Of a DNA stretch of 64,000 bases, positions 9,311 to 14,580 are shown piece by piece. Origin of the DNA: Martinezella lusitana (GTDB taxonomy: Bacteria > Pseudomonadota > Alphaproteobacteria > Rhizobiales > Rhizobiaceae); the NCBI RefSeq assembly GCF_010668395.1, contig NZ_WUEY01000013.1, forward strand, positions 124,001 to 188,000. The letters are read 5' to 3'. Each line of letters opens with the position of its first letter. Position 1 is the first letter of the stretch. A program made the translations under genes and the position numbers. Under the pieces are notes generated by a model that was not told where the DNA came from, did not search any database, and saw only the letters and a list, made by a program, of their open reading frames with translations.

Positions 9311-9919
9311 CTACGCCTGTCTCGCCGCGGCGCCCGCTGCAATCGTCAGGATAAAGTCATCCAGCTCAAGTTCCAGGCTCTCGATCGGCAGGCCGACGAA
9401 TCGACCTTCGAGGCTAATGCTGACGACGCCGTGCACGGCACCGAACAAGGTTCTCGCGCGAATGGCCCGTGCCGTCTCGGACATCGTGGGCTGCAACTCG
9501 GCGAGCGGCGCGGCAATGACGCCCATCAGGAACATGTGTTCTTCCAGATGCCATTCGGGGCTCGGGCGGTCGTCCGGCGGTCGATGGTCGAAGAGCGCCT
9601 TCCATAGGTTGCGGTGGGTGACCGCAAACCGCAAATAGCCGCGTGCGAGGTTGCGCAGCTGGTCGGCCGGCGTGTGATTCTTGACTTCCGCGAGTGTCAG
9701 GGAAGCCTCCAGCGCCTTCAGCGTTGCCGAATTGACGTGGATGATGAGATCGTCGAGATCGGTAAAGACCGTATAGAGACCGCCGAGCGCACAGCCGACG
9801 TCCTGCGTGACGTCGCGCGCCCGCAGGTTGGAAAGCCCATCGGCCGCTATGCGATTGCGCGCCGCCTCGATCAGCCGCAGCTTCAGATCCTCGCGCTTTT
9901 CCAGCGTTTTTCTCGCCAT
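9311..9919 (-). CDS. TetR-family repressor of the pspA-yiaA-aas operon
   Basis: A TetR regulator of about 202 aa. The N-terminal helix-turn-helix is in LRARDVTQDVGCALGGLYTVF, and the rest is an all-helical ligand/dimer domain. ATG 9919 (MARKTLEKREDLK) is preferred over the upstream ATG at 9955, because the latter lies inside the first operator palindrome. It is divergent from pspA. Three copies of a 15-bp palindrome fill the 111-bp gap, so autoregulation and repression of the operon are very likely. The inducer is unknown; a lysolipid, fatty acid or membrane-active compound would fit the targets. Confidence 0.9.
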   Translation of the reverse strand: MARKTLEKREDLKLRLIEAARNRIAADGLSNLRARDVTQDVGCALGGLYTVFTDLDDLIIHVNSATLKALEASLTLAEVKNHTPADQLRNLARGYLRFAVTHRNLWKALFDHRPPDDRPSPEWHLEEHMFLMGVIAAPLAELQPTMSETARAIRARTLFGAVHGVVSISLEGRFVGLPIESLELELDDFILTIAAGAAARQA

Positions 9920-9940
9920 TGTCAATTCCAATCCAATTTT

Positions 9941-10014
9941 TTGAACGTTGTTCAAAATTGTTCTTGAACAACGTTCATGATTCTGGCATATCTCGTTTCA
10001 TGAACATCGTTCAT
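9941..10014. promoter_or_regulatory. Triple palindromic operator between tetR and pspA
   Basis: Three copies of a 15-bp inverted repeat: TTGAACGTTGTTCAA (9941-9955), TTGAACAACGTTCAT (9964-9978) and ATGAACATCGTTCAT (10000-10014). All share GAAC-NNN-GTTC. Centres are 23 and 36 bp apart. The position between divergent tetR and pspA and the length are typical of TetR operators. Confidence 0.85.
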
Positions 10015-10030
10015 AAACGGGAGACGACAA

Positions 10031-10720
10031 ATGTTCAATGTAATTCTGACGCTCATTCGCGGTCGGGCCTTCGATGCGGAGCAGGCGTTCATCGATCGCA
10101 ACGCCGTGCCGCTGCTGGCGCAGCAGATCCGCGACGCGGCAAGCGCCATTCAGTCGGCGCGCCGCGCGGTGGCAATCGCCGTCGCGCAGAACGAACAGGA
10201 AAAGAGCCAGCACGCGGCGGTTGCCGGCCGCATCGCGGATCTGGAAAGCCGGGCCGTTGCCGCCTTGCAGAAGGGCAGTGACGAACTTGCCCGGCAGGCG
10301 GCCGAGGCAATCGCCCAGCTTGAGGCCGAGCGCGACGCTTCCGAGAAGGCGCAGGCGCAATTTACCCAGACAATCGGCAGGCTCAAGGCCACGGTCCAAG
10401 CATCGGAAGCGCGTCTGCAGGAGTTGCAGCGCGGCGAGCGGCTGGCGCGCGCCACGGCGCAGACGCAGAAGCTGAATGCCGTCTGTGACGATAATTCCGG
10501 CCTGGCAACCCTGGACGAGGCCGAGGAAACCTTGGCCCGCCTTCGGGCCTACCAGGGGCGCTGCGAGATTGCGGCCTCGACCATGAAGGAAATGGACGCG
10601 GCGAGCCGGCAGACGGCCATCGTCGAAAAGCTTGCCAATGCCGGCTTTGGCGCACCGCTTGGCCCTTCGGCGGACGACGTGCTCGCCCGCCTTCGCGCGC
10701 GCATGAATTCAGCAGCCTGA
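10031..10720 (+). CDS. pspA: PspA/IM30 (ESCRT-III-like) membrane-stress protein
   Basis: A 229-aa, almost wholly helical coiled-coil protein of the PspA/IM30/Vipp1 family, which assembles on damaged inner membrane and limits proton leakage. The N-terminus MFNVILTLIRGRAFDAEQAF is the amphipathic membrane-binding helix. Long heptad-rich helices follow (about 25-150, many Ala, Gln, Glu). Length matches the family. A ribosome site (GGGAGACGAC) precedes ATG 10031. It is first in an operon with yiaA and the aas fusion and lies under the three TetR palindromes. No pspF or pspBC is nearby, so control differs from the enterobacterial Psp system. Confidence 0.85.
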   Translation: MFNVILTLIRGRAFDAEQAFIDRNAVPLLAQQIRDAASAIQSARRAVAIAVAQNEQEKSQHAAVAGRIADLESRAVAALQKGSDELARQAAEAIAQLEAERDASEKAQAQFTQTIGRLKATVQASEARLQELQRGERLARATAQTQKLNAVCDDNSGLATLDEAEETLARLRAYQGRCEIAASTMKEMDAASRQTAIVEKLANAGFGAPLGPSADDVLARLRARMNSAA

Positions 10721-10757
10721 ACCCGAACACACCAAACTCATAAGAGAGGACACGACC

Positions 10758-11039
10758 ATGAACGACAGCTTCCAGAAACACTCGCAGGCTTGGGTCAGCT
10801 TTTCCTATATTTCCTTTGGCGCCGCCGCCTTCATGCTTTTCGTCGGCCTTTACATGATGCCGATCGATCTGTGGGGCAAAGGCTATCTCGCCATGGGCAT
10901 CCTGATGCTGGTGCAGACGGCGGTCAATGTCACCAAGACGATCCGCGACAACAGCGAGGCTGACAAGCTGATCCGCAAGGTGGAGGATGCCCGCACGGAG
11001 AAGCTGCTCGTTAAGTTCAATCGTGACGGTCAGGACTAA
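10758..11039 (+). CDS. YiaA/YiaB two-helix inner membrane protein
   Basis: A 93-aa protein of the YiaAB family with two close hydrophobic helices (WVSFSYISFGAAAFMLFVGLY and GYLAMGILMLVQTAVNVTK) and a charged C-terminal tail that should lie in the cytoplasm. The function of the family is not established. AGAGGA precedes the ATG. It sits between pspA and aas in the same direction, which suggests a part in sensing or holding the PspA-linked response at the membrane. Confidence 0.85.
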   Translation: MNDSFQKHSQAWVSFSYISFGAAAFMLFVGLYMMPIDLWGKGYLAMGILMLVQTAVNVTKTIRDNSEADKLIRKVEDARTEKLLVKFNRDGQD

Positions 11040-11050
11040 ACTTTGTTAAC

Positions 11051-11104
11051 GACGCCGCAGAGTTGCATTGGCGCTCAACCTTTGCGTAATAACTCTGTGG
11101 CGTC
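11051..11104 (+). promoter_or_regulatory. Long hairpin between yiaA and aas
   Basis: GACGCCGCAGAGTT (11051-11064) pairs with AACTCTGTGGCGTC (11091-11104), 14 bp with one G-U pair, around a 26-nt loop. No T run follows, so it is not a standard terminator. It ends 25 bases before the aas ATG and could tune aas expression or stability within the operon. Confidence 0.5.
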
Positions 11105-11129
11105 TTGTTGGCTGAACGAGGGGTACGTC

Positions 11130-14100
11130 ATGCAAAACCACCTGATGAAATCGAGGAAATTCGCGCCGCTGTTCTGGACGCAGTTCCTCACCGCCTTCAA
11201 CGATAACTTTCTCAAGCAGACACTGGTTTTCGTCATTCTCGCGCAGATGGCGACGGAAGGTGCGGCGCTGGTGACACTTGCCGGCGGCATCTTCATCGTG
11301 CCGTTCCTGCTGTTGTCGGCGATTGCCGGCGAGCTTGCCGACAAATACGACAAGGCCAAGATGGCGGAGCTTCTGAAGCGCTGCGAGCTTGGGGTCGCAG
11401 CCATTTCCGTCGTCGGCATCGCCTTCTCCTCGATCTGGATCCTGATGCTTGCCCTCTTCGGCTTCGGCGTCATTTCCTCTCTTTTCGGGCCGATCAAATA
11501 CGGCATCCTGCCGGATCACCTGGAAAACAGGGATCTCCCGAGGGCCAACGCCTGGATCGAGGGCGGCACCTTCATCGCCATTCTCACCGGCACCATGGTC
11601 GCCGCGGTCGCCTTTCGCGAGGGCGAGAATGTCTGGATCTTCGGCCCGATGATGATGGGGCTTTCGATCCTTTGCTGGTTTTCCGCCCGCATGATCCCCT
11701 CGACCGGCTCCAAGGCGCCGGATCTCATCGTCGATACCAATGTCGTCCGTTCAAGCTACAGGCTGGTCAACGAGCTTCGCGCCGACAGCCGCATCTGGCG
11801 CGCATCGCTGATGAACTGCTGGTTCTGGTTCGTCGGCGCCTTCATCATGTCGATGCTGCCGGTCATGGTGACCGACATTCTTGGCGGCTCGGAAATCGTC
11901 GTTCCCGCCTATCTGGCAATCTTTGCCGTGTCCGTGGCCATCGGCTCGGCTATCGCCGGCTGGATGGCTGCCGGCCGCATCGTGCTTCTGCCGGCGCCCG
12001 TCGGCATGCTGATCGTCGCTCTTTTCGGTCTCGATCTCGCCTGGAACCTCTGGGGTCTGCAGTCGACCGCCCATGCCGAAACCATTCTCGCCTTCTTTGA
12101 GGGGCCGAAGACGATCCGCGTCGCCATCGATCTTGCCGGCATGGCAATCGGCGGCGCTTTCCTTGCCGTCCCGACCTTTGCGGCCATGCAGAGCTGGGCA
12201 AACGAGGATCGCCGCGCCCGCGTCATCGGTGCGGCGAACGTGCTGTCCGCTCTCTTCATCGCGGTCGGCCTGGCGCTTGTGGCCGTCCTGCAGGCCGTCG
12301 GCCTGTCGGTTCCGGTCATTATTCTCAGCATCTCCGTGCTCAACATCGCGATCGCCTGGGTCATGCTGAAGATGCTGCCCACCAACGCCTTCCGCGACCT
12401 CATCTCCATCATTTTCCGCGCCTTCATGCGGTTGGAAGTCGAGGGACTGGAAAATATCCGCAAGGCGGGTTCCGCTCCGATCATCGCGCTTAATCATGTG
12501 AGCCTGCTCGATGGCGCGCTGGCGCTCGCCATCACCGAGGAAGAGCCCGTCTTCGCCATCGACTATGCCTTCGCCAAGAAATGGTGGGTGCGGCCACTGC
12601 TGACAAAGTGCAAGTTCCTGCCGCTCGACCCGACGAAGCCGATGGCGACGCGTTCGCTGATCAAGGTGATCCAGGACGGCAGCCCCGTCGGCATCTTTCC
12701 CGAGGGGCGGCTGACCGTGACAGGCACGCTGATGAAGGTCTACGACGGCGCCGCCATGGTCGCAGACAAGACCGGCGCGATGATCGTGCCCGTTCGCATC
12801 GACGGCCTTGAAAAGAGCTATGCCTCCTATCTGACGTCGAGCCATGTTCGCCGCCGTCTTTTCCCCAAGGTCAAGGTCACGATCCTGGAGCCGGTCAAGC
12901 TTGACGTCCCGGCGGAGCTGAAGGGCAGGAAGCGCCGCATTGCTGCCGGTGCCGCCCTCTATCAGATCATGTCGACGCTGATGTTCCGCACCGCCGATAC
13001 GAACAACACGGTCCTCGGCCGCGTCATCGAAAGCGCCCATGAGTACGGCGGCAAGAAACTCGCGGTCGAGGATCCGATTGCCGGCAAGCTTTCCTATGCC
13101 AAGCTTCTGACCGGCGCCGCGGTGCTCGGTGCGAAGTTCAGGAGGATGTTCCCTGAGGAGAAGACGCTCGGCGTCATGCTGCCGAATGCAAACGGCACGG
13201 CGGCTACGGTCCTCGGCGTCATGTCGGCAGGCAAGGTTCCGGCCATGCTGAATTTTACGGCGGGTGCGACCAATATCCTGTCCGCCTGCCGGACCGCCGA
13301 GGTTAAGCACGTTCTCAGCTCGCGCGCCTTCATCACGCAGGCCAAGCTCGGCCCGGTGGTCGAGGAACTCGAAAAGCAGGTGGCGTTCGTCTGGCTGGAC
13401 GAGCTGCGCACGCAGGTCACTTTCCTCAACAAGATCGTCGGTCTCATCCGTAAATATCGACCGCTGGTCAAGCGCAGCGCCGATGATCCGGCAGTCATCC
13501 TTTTCACCTCCGGTTCCGAAGGTGCGCCGAAGGGTGTGGTGCTGAGCCATCGCAATATCCTGTCGAACGCCGCCCAGGCGGCTTCGCGTATCGACTTCCA
13601 TCCCGGCGACAAGGTGTTCAACATCCTGCCGATGTTCCACTCCTTCGGCCTGACGGCCGGCACCATCCTGCCGCTGGTCTCGGGTGTGCCGATCTTCCTC
13701 TATCCGTCACCGTTGCACTATCGCATCGTGCCGGAGCTGATTTACGTCTCGAACGCGACCATTGTCTTCGGCACGGATACGTTCCTGAACGGCTATGCGC
13801 GCAGCGCTCACCCCTACGACCTGAGGTCGATCCGCTATATCTTCTCCGGCGCAGAGCCGGTGAAGGCCTCGACCCGCGAGGTCTATATGGAGAAATTCGG
13901 CCTGCGCATCCTGGAGGGCTATGGCGTTACCGAGGCAGCCCCGGTCATCTCGCTGAACACGCCGATGTACAACCGCACGGGAACGGTCGGCAAGATCATG
14001 CCCGGCATGGAATGGAAACTCGAGCCGGTTCCCGGCATCGACGAGGGCGGCCGTCTCCACATCCGCGGCGCCAATGTCATGGCCGGCTACCTGCGGGCCG

Positions 14101-14525
14101 ACAATCCGGGTATCCTCGAGCCGCTGCCGGAGGGCTGGCACGATACCGGTGACATCGTCACCATCGATGAAGACGGTTTCGTCAAGATCCGCGGCCGCGC
14201 CAAGCGCTTCGCCAAGATCGGCGGCGAAATGATTTCGCTGGCCGCGGTGGAGACCCTTGCGGCGCAGCTTTGGCCGGGTGCTCTCAGCGTCGTCTCGGCG
14301 GTGCCCGACCAGAAGAAGGGTGAGCGTCTCGTGCTCCTGACCGATGCGCCGGAGGCCACGCGAAGCGATTTCCTGGCATTCGCCAAATCGAAGGGCGCCA
14401 CGGAAATGATGGTTCCCGCCGAAGTCACCGTTGGCAAGGTTCCTGTCCTCGGTTCCGGCAAAGTCGACTTCGTGACGGCGCGCGCCATGGCTTTGGAAGC
14501 TCAGGCGCAATCGCAGGCGGCGTAG
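11130..14525 (+). CDS. aas: Fused lysophospholipid transporter / acyltransferase / acyl-ACP synthetase (LplT-Aas type)
   Basis: A 1131-aa three-part protein. Residues about 1-400 are an MFS transporter like LplT (TQFLTAFNDNFLKQTLVF), which flips lysophospholipid inwards. About 430-630 is a PlsC acyltransferase with the NHVSLLD (HX4D) motif near 455 and FPEGR near 523. About 660-1120 is an AMP-forming acyl-ACP synthetase with FTSGSEGAPKG near 791, EGYGVTE and a C-terminal lid. Together they re-acylate lysophosphatidylethanolamine. In E. coli LplT and Aas are separate proteins; the fusion occurs in other proteobacteria. ATG 11130 is chosen (MQNHLMKSRKFAPLFW); an in-frame ATG 15 bases later is possible. 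It ends at a strong terminator. Confidence 0.9.
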   Translation: MQNHLMKSRKFAPLFWTQFLTAFNDNFLKQTLVFVILAQMATEGAALVTLAGGIFIVPFLLLSAIAGELADKYDKAKMAELLKRCELGVAAISVVGIAFSSIWILMLALFGFGVISSLFGPIKYGILPDHLENRDLPRANAWIEGGTFIAILTGTMVAAVAFREGENVWIFGPMMMGLSILCWFSARMIPSTGSKAPDLIVDTNVVRSSYRLVNELRADSRIWRASLMNCWFWFVGAFIMSMLPVMVTDILGGSEIVVPAYLAIFAVSVAIGSAIAGWMAAGRIVLLPAPVGMLIVALFGLDLAWNLWGLQSTAHAETILAFFEGPKTIRVAIDLAGMAIGGAFLAVPTFAAMQSWANEDRRARVIGAANVLSALFIAVGLALVAVLQAVGLSVPVIILSISVLNIAIAWVMLKMLPTNAFRDLISIIFRAFMRLEVEGLENIRKAGSAPIIALNHVSLLDGALALAITEEEPVFAIDYAFAKKWWVRPLLTKCKFLPLDPTKPMATRSLIKVIQDGSPVGIFPEGRLTVTGTLMKVYDGAAMVADKTGAMIVPVRIDGLEKSYASYLTSSHVRRRLFPKVKVTILEPVKLDVPAELKGRKRRIAAGAALYQIMSTLMFRTADTNNTVLGRVIESAHEYGGKKLAVEDPIAGKLSYAKLLTGAAVLGAKFRRMFPEEKTLGVMLPNANGTAATVLGVMSAGKVPAMLNFTAGATNILSACRTAEVKHVLSSRAFITQAKLGPVVEELEKQVAFVWLDELRTQVTFLNKIVGLIRKYRPLVKRSADDPAVILFTSGSEGAPKGVVLSHRNILSNAAQAASRIDFHPGDKVFNILPMFHSFGLTAGTILPLVSGVPIFLYPSPLHYRIVPELIYVSNATIVFGTDTFLNGYARSAHPYDLRSIRYIFSGAEPVKASTREVYMEKFGLRILEGYGVTEAAPVISLNTPMYNRTGTVGKIMPGMEWKLEPVPGIDEGGRLHIRGANVMAGYLRADNPGILEPLPEGWHDTGDIVTIDEDGFVKIRGRAKRFAKIGGEMISLAAVETLAAQLWPGALSVVSAVPDQKKGERLVLLTDAPEATRSDFLAFAKSKGATEMMVPAEVTVGKVPVLGSGKVDFVTARAMALEAQAQSQAA

Positions 14526-14544
14526 AACTCTGCAGGTGAGCGCC

Positions 14545-14580
14545 AAAGCGGCCGGTGGTTCTATCCTCCGGCCGCTTTTT
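14545..14580 (+). terminator. Intrinsic terminator of the pspA-yiaA-aas operon
   Basis: AAAGCGGCCGG pairs perfectly (11 bp) with CCGGCCGCTTT around a 12-nt loop, followed by further T. It lies 20 bases after the aas stop and just before the convergent histidine-kinase gene. Confidence 0.9.

Follow-up and report, generated by a model that had tools for sequence, protein, structure and literature searches.

The described systems closest to the locus reported here are PspFABC, the phage shock protein (Psp) system of enterobacteria, and the lplT-aas genes of Escherichia coli, which encode a lysophospholipid flippase and an acyltransferase/acyl-acyl carrier protein (ACP) synthetase. The locus occupies positions 9311 to 14580 of a 64,000-nucleotide stretch of Martinezella lusitana (contig NZ_WUEY01000013.1, positions 124,001 to 188,000; hereafter the window) and consists of a divergent tetR gene followed by pspA, yiaAB and aas. 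It resembles PspFABC in combining a PspA/IM30 effector and a small membrane protein in an apparently inducible operon for inner-membrane stress, but differs in that its regulator is a TetR with three palindromes as operators, PspB and PspC are missing from the genome, and a lysophospholipid re-acylation enzyme is added. With E. coli lplT-aas it shares the same three activities by family (LplT-like major facilitator superfamily (MFS) transporter, PlsC acyltransferase and acyl-ACP synthetase), but in the window these are fused in one protein of the NF005291 type and sited in a PspA operon. On balance we think it probable that the module represents a variant, under TetR control, of the phage-shock response to membrane stress, in which a lipid-damage signal is answered by a PspA-YiaAB holding action and by re-acylation through Aas.

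An earlier note, written from the sequence of the window, had stated that no classical Psp partners are present. For PspB and PspC this stood in a whole-genome profile search: neither PspC (PF04024; of 14 control genomes seven match, E. coli included) nor PspB (PF06667; a match in one of the 14, E. coli) was matched in the M. lusitana genome. For PspF the statement covers the eight genes around the operon, none of which is PspF, no search aimed at PspF having been made. The protein families themselves are already known; what is new, as far as we found in print, is their union under this TetR and operator. That union of PspA, TetR, YiaA or YiaAB and Aas was not found in the open-access literature (supplements excluded), and the terms TetR, YiaA, Aas and Rhizobi do not occur in the main text of two PSP surveys (PMC11237479, PMC9239133). 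In this arrangement a soluble one-component regulator and a three-site operator tie PspA to lysophospholipid repair, and because the switch comprises one regulator protein and 111 bp of DNA, the signal that induces PspA is directly testable in vitro. The locus bears on the activation of PspA systems other than the enterobacterial model and on the chemical signal that they read, gives YiaAB, a poorly understood family, a candidate role, and assigns a pspA that acid strongly induces in a bean-nodulating rhizobium to a concrete circuit.

Operators and conservation of the module

The spacer between tetR (9311..9919, minus strand) and pspA (10031..10720, plus strand) is 111 bp long and holds three exact TGAAC-RNY-GTTCA palindromes (TGAACRNYGTTCA; TGAACNNNGTTCA) at 9942, 9965 and 10001. 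Predicted operator 1 (TGAACGTTGTTCA; 9942..9954) lies 22 bp from the tetR start codon, predicted operator 2 (TGAACAACGTTCA; 9965..9977) overlaps the putative -35 box of pspA, and predicted operator 3 (TGAACATCGTTCA; 10001..10013) is at the putative transcription start. We infer for pspA an extended -10 promoter on the plus strand (9964..9992; TTGAAC - 17 bp - CATATC, with a TG one base 5' of the -10), its -35 within operator 2 and its start site at operator 3. Each position of the TG-n-CATA that follows operator 2, 17 bp from TTGAAC, is kept in 46 to 51 of 51 distinct loci at identical spacing; a generic promoter scan did not list the promoter. The proposal that TetR controls the module, made in the earlier note, thus gains three predicted operators within the promoter region shared by tetR and pspA, two of which overlap the putative -35 box and start site. 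Six copies of the palindrome exist in the 7.75-Mb genome, three of them at the module (a reversed-pattern control occurs three times). Two of the other three lack the RNY centre and the third, which has it, lies within an ATP-binding cassette (ABC) transporter open reading frame (ORF), and the regulon therefore seems, in this genome, to be limited to the module.

The search for PspA matched 67 of 150 genomes. Fifty-eight of these belong to the same genus, one of them (G032) with only a partial match of 29%, leaving a full-length PspA of this type in 57 of 90 same-genus genomes. TetR, three operators, PspA, YiaAB and Aas were all present in each of the 32 loci read from these 57 (30 plus G037 and G043). 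In one of the 32 (L022, G073) yiaAB is split over two frames, with TetR, the operators, PspA and Aas intact in the stretch read. Gene order in relatives had been set beforehand as a test of the module, and it is kept both in the same-genus loci and in those of a second, named-genome set. Since order and three operators at nearly equal spacing are kept in 30 of 30 same-genus loci read (the window included), the gene arrangement is beyond chance. Absence is shared as well: 30 of the 32 same-genus genomes without PspA also lack Aas (E 1e-100), and the two exceptions with Aas are a contig-end fragment in a genome 82% complete (G003) and a copy of 53% identity with no LplT part and one stop (G025).

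From the named genomes the best 80 of the 84 loci found were read. A divergent TetR was present in 79, three operators in 77, the three-domain fused Aas in 75 and YiaAB in 79. Two of the five loci without Aas are on contigs ending less than 520 bp after pspA. A strict position filter placed YiaAB in 70 of the 80, tblastn over the whole locus in 79, and the sole miss is a contig that ends in pspA. Over the whole fetched stretch, 77 loci held three palindromes, two held two and one held one. In the 77, sites 1 and 2 are 21-24 bp apart and sites 2 and 3 are 33-36 bp apart, and the RNY centre was seen in all 204 palindromes of the 68 distinct three-site loci. The pairwise distances of the four proteins rise together over 75 loci (r of 0.85-0.96, uncorrected for ancestry). 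The genera with the module include Rhizobium, Neorhizobium, Endobacterium and Mesorhizobium, and Ruegeria has it without Aas. Annotated plasmid records from Ensifer and Shinella carry a TetR or WHG protein, PspA, YiaA/B and an acyl-[ACP]--phospholipid O-acyltransferase; a Thioclava plasmid record has the module without Aas.

The centres of operators 1 and 2 are exact reverse complements in 32 of the 68 distinct loci (shuffled mean 7.2), giving a potential 15-bp hairpin at 9942-9977 of the window, while those of operators 1 and 3 are complementary in three of the 68 (shuffled mean 8.6). Many operator pairs at the order level are not complementary, and we therefore take this hairpin as a local feature and set it aside as part of the mechanism. 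The YiaAB tail (EDAxTEKLL-like) was considered as a docking motif for PspA and rejected, YiaAB proteins of Pseudanabaena and Tsukamurella that are not beside PspA reaching the same query residues; the tail is missing in locus L075, the one with a YiaAB and no PspA.

Operators and PspA across the order and class

The tandem operator was found in 62 of 297 genomes of the order and 16 of 385 of the class, and the reversed-pattern control in none. Thirty operator loci of the order were read, one per genome (more matches exist). Ten front PspA, ten front an LplT-type gene without PspA and ten neither. In wider stretches of the ten LplT-type loci (L239-L248), the operators stand at a full LplT-PlsC-AAS fusion in all ten and a TetR of the subfamily adjoins in eight, with no PspA or YiaAB within 12 kb. 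Among the 16 class loci, four front PspA (the window included) and one fronts YiaAB-Aas; in this last (L075/L249) TetR and YiaAB-Aas occur without PspA, the full fusion being seen in L249. PspA and LplT-Aas, apart in some genomes and joined in others, thus stand behind a shared type of operator and a TetR of one subfamily, and this is our best evidence that both belong to one response.

When the order was searched for PspA instead, 55 of 297 genomes matched, and 30 loci were read (27 new plus L003, L020 and L028). At least two operators were found in 23 of the 30 (the count at L112 perhaps coming from a repeat) and one in four; TetR was adjacent in 26, YiaAB in 25, and the start of Aas lay within the 1.5-kb flank in nine. 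The earlier interpretation is supported in part. The genes are co-inherited as one unit in the same layout; they are also separable, relatives having TetR-PspA-YiaAB without Aas and TetR-Aas without PspA.

Several of the other operator loci carry lipid genes. L077 has a cytidine diphosphate (CDP)-alcohol phosphatidyltransferase, an alpha/beta hydrolase and a TetR of this profile; L078 has a CDP-alcohol phosphatidyltransferase and a PlsC-like acyltransferase, with no TetR in the stretch. These two may represent a second lipid operon under the same tandem operators. A fatty acid hydroxylase (L079) and a type III polyketide synthase (L128) were also found at operators, as was a ceramidase-like match below its cut-off (L082); L085 gave no family match. 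Paired palindromes at steps of about 170 bp on contig C34 of G667 (L130) are apparently a repeat, with a layout unrelated to that of the operators.

Expression, proposed mechanism and alternatives

The sole published inducer we found is pH 4.5. In Rhizobium tropici CIAT 899, according to the main text of PMC5936775, the pspA gene RS28825 has a log2 fold change of 4.87 in cells adapted to pH 4.5 and of 4.42 after a 45-min shift, and RS28820, labelled hypothetical, one of 4.46 in adapted cells. The two genes, pspA and its neighbour, thus rise about 20-30-fold (PMC5936775). The TetR gene RS28830 is named there among the differentially expressed genes, in a passage that gives no direction, and is linked by the authors to efflux pumps. 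The study used three replicates, a threshold of p < 0.15 for differential expression, and low pH in minimal medium, and it locates RS28825 and RS28820 on pRtrCIAT899c (PMC5936775). In the record of this plasmid, which is unannotated, we found one match to the module PspA and none to the YqiJ-type PspA, and the match belongs to an entire module that includes three operators, in the direction that the tags imply. As this is the only PspA match on the plasmid and the direction fits, we infer RS28820 to be yiaAB. The tag expected for aas, RS28815, does not appear in the main text (PMC5936775). In R. leguminosarum, RL1106 pspA is listed as required for root attachment at pH 7.0 in the part of PMC11406972 that treats it. 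The chromosome of R. johnstonii 3841 (L203) carries a full module with operators at 1.1885-1.1886 Mb; its pspA is probably RL1106, the position fitting the tag number, and a literature search for the tags gave no paper.

Operators were not found in any of 75 yiaAB-aas gaps. The 90-bp gap of the window folds with a z-score of -4.1 and contains a predicted intercistronic RNA hairpin (11056..11099, plus strand) of 11 conserved pairs (11056-11066 with 11089-11099). It was aligned in 40 sequences, namely that of the window and 39 out of 63 distinct gaps of this type. The stem is kept in 97.7% of cells versus 95.6 in shuffles, and 11 cells are changed on both sides versus 1.4 in shuffles, a value reached by none of 500. 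Of the five measures of covariation, two are weak: the both-side changes fall in three pairs, against 1.2 in shuffles with 25 of 500 equally high, and the further pair types were reached by 185 of 500 shuffles. Many exchanges in the stem are between A-U and G-U, and these together with the covariation suggest RNA pairing more than a DNA site. The hairpin had no Rfam match, and a genomic repeat was ruled out by its single match in the genome. A model of the hairpin matched R. tropici (L073) and the window. The other 27 sources gave no match, though some of these are not long enough to include the gap; as far as we searched, the hairpin is found in Rhizobium-type loci only. Folded gaps had z-scores of -2.5 to -3.8 in three Rhizobium-type loci and from -6.7 to +1.2 outside Rhizobium, and given this spread a general gap hairpin beyond Rhizobium was not established. 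The hairpin probably lowers the aas part of the message or causes it to be processed separately.

The regulator stands alone in the genome as a strong member of its subfamily (E 1.8e-88, next 2.5e-21). It belongs to the TetR family by PF13305 (TetR_C_33, WHG; 53.2 bits, cut-off 26.8) and by its predicted fold; PF00440 was not reached at E 0.001, yet was reached by three relatives. The AlphaFold2 model is all-helical, with nine helices and a mean predicted local distance difference test (pLDDT) score of 90.9. Its best fold match in the PDB is 3cjd (template modelling (TM) score 0.82/0.91; by sequence E 1.8e-33), a TetR protein of Jannaschia sp. CCS1 that is the closest solved relative by both sequence and predicted fold. 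Among the more distant structural neighbours are fatty-acid regulators as well as RolR and PhlH, which bind phenolics, and with both kinds present the fold alone gives no ligand name.

In the proposed mechanism a TetR dimer would bind operators 2 and 3, at the -35 and start site, and operator 1, before tetR, and would so repress pspA-yiaAB-aas as well as itself. Membrane-lipid damage is the likely signal. Such damage, with acid as one cause, would raise a small hydrophobic compound, most likely a free fatty acid or lysophospholipid, that would fill the TetR pocket and cause the DNA to be released. PspA, partnered in the membrane by YiaAB, would polymerise where the inner membrane is damaged, while LplT would carry lysophospholipid to the inner leaflet for PlsC/AAS to re-acylate with fatty acid. 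As Aas would consume the presumed inducers, repair would turn the operon off. A bolder form of this proposal is possible, though we think it less likely than not: a lipid-sensing one-component phage-shock system in which TetR binds the substrates of Aas (lysophospholipid or free fatty acid), so that the sensing of damage, the holding of the membrane and re-acylation close into a single feedback loop, which extends across Hyphomicrobiales to Rhodobacterales (Ruegeria, Thioclava), in which the Rhizobium hairpin sets the ratio of scaffold to enzyme, and in which YiaAB replaces PspB/PspC.

A number of observations weigh against this membrane-lipid proposal. The printed R. tropici table has pspA and the next gene and not the gene that follows, and at 45 min pspA is the only gene of the module in it (PMC5936775). 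Neither PspA nor Aas is fronted by 10 of the 30 operator loci of the order, and 11 of the 16 class loci front neither, five of these 11 carrying a TetR of this profile. A pure lipid theme is not favoured by operator loci with a VIT/VWA protein (L117) or an MFS transporter (L139). Within the 30 order PspA loci, three have no exact operator, four have no adjacent TetR and 21 have no Aas within the 1.5-kb flank, and the RNY centre is found in 111 of 135 palindromes of loci L090-L146 (site repeats included). Conservation of neighbours within a single genus is also partly due to common ancestry.

Many TetR regulators of known ligand bind xenobiotics, and the TetR of the window might likewise sense a foreign membrane-active compound such as a drug, plant phenolic or organic acid, with PspA, YiaAB and Aas serving as a general cleanup kit. 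The presence of RolR and PhlH beside the fatty acid regulators among its structural neighbours would suit such a ligand, as would the MFS transporter at L139. We nevertheless think it rather unlikely, since the module encodes neither an efflux pump nor an enzyme of detoxification, lipid genes adjoin the operators at several loci elsewhere, and pspA was induced by low pH in minimal medium in the experiment described in PMC5936775. A different possibility is that, as in the classical Psp response, a loss of proton-motive force or a low cytoplasmic pH as such serves as the signal, to which TetR would respond indirectly, with Aas rebuilding the membrane after acid. PspA of E. coli does respond to loss of proton-motive force. 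Induction in R. tropici at pH 4.5 occurred inside 45 min by the printed values (PMC5936775). The genome has no membrane sensor of the PspB/PspC type, however, the regulator is a soluble one-component protein, and TetR, three operators, PspA and YiaAB occur together in Ruegeria halocynthiae (L217), which has no evident link to acid; we judge this explanation unlikely.

It could also be that TetR-PspA-YiaAB is a real unit and that aas is separately controlled, lying nearby by chance or receiving weak read-through. The covarying hairpin between yiaAB and aas, the fact that the induction study does not give the aas tag in its main text (PMC5936775) and the 21 order PspA loci without adjacent Aas would all agree with this. 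It is made quite improbable by the 10 of 30 operator loci in which the same operator type fronts the full LplT-PlsC-AAS fusion alone, eight of them with TetR, by the fused Aas that follows in 75 of 80 named loci, by the joint absence of Aas and PspA from 30 of 32 genomes, and by the lack of an operator in all 75 yiaAB-aas gaps. A joint response to membrane-lipid damage under TetR is the explanation that we prefer.

Gene calls and flanking features

Profile searches and folding confirmed the layout given in the earlier note, namely a divergent TetR, pspA, yiaAB and aas in the same direction, and one strong terminator. The pspA product matches PF04012 over residues 2-224 (78.9 bits, cut-off 33.9), and the same profile matches solved Vipp1/PspA chains (E 1.1e-5); no NCBIfam model matched it. 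The yiaAB gene (10758..11039, plus strand) encodes a two-helix inner-membrane protein with a charged tail (PF05360, 64.5 bits, cut-off 26.6). The aas gene (11130..14525, plus strand) encodes an 1131-aa fusion with LplT-like MFS, PlsC and AMP-binding (acyl-ACP synthetase) domains, which scores 1725 bits against the NF005291 equivalog (acyl-[ACP]--phospholipid O-acyltransferase; cut-off 1349). It contains HVSLLD at 456, FPEGR at 523, FTSGSEGAPKG at 792, YGVTE at 931 and TGD at 1006, which we take to be intact catalytic motifs. Its start is the ATG at 11130, a position that is aligned in relatives, the 1160-aa ORF from the TTG at 11043 being merely mechanical.

The operon is closed by a predicted intrinsic terminator between convergent genes (14545..14580, plus strand) with an 11-pair stem and a T run, which folds with a minimum free energy of -33 kcal/mol and a z-score of -4.1. 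It is absent from the output of a simple terminator scan, probably on account of a loop longer than 8 bases. One further PF04012 protein is encoded in the genome, on contig C55, followed by a YqiJ protein (locus L002, 997-2799). It belongs to the same PspA/IM30 family, but is 381 aa long, has this other neighbour and lies on a contig without TGAAC-RNY-GTTCA palindromes. Outside the module, a polysaccharide deacetylase gene precedes tetR and a convergent histidine kinase/response regulator pair follows aas. Of these outer neighbours of the window, MinC and the deacetylase recur in 19 of the 80 named loci and the kinase (at least 50% identity) in 18.

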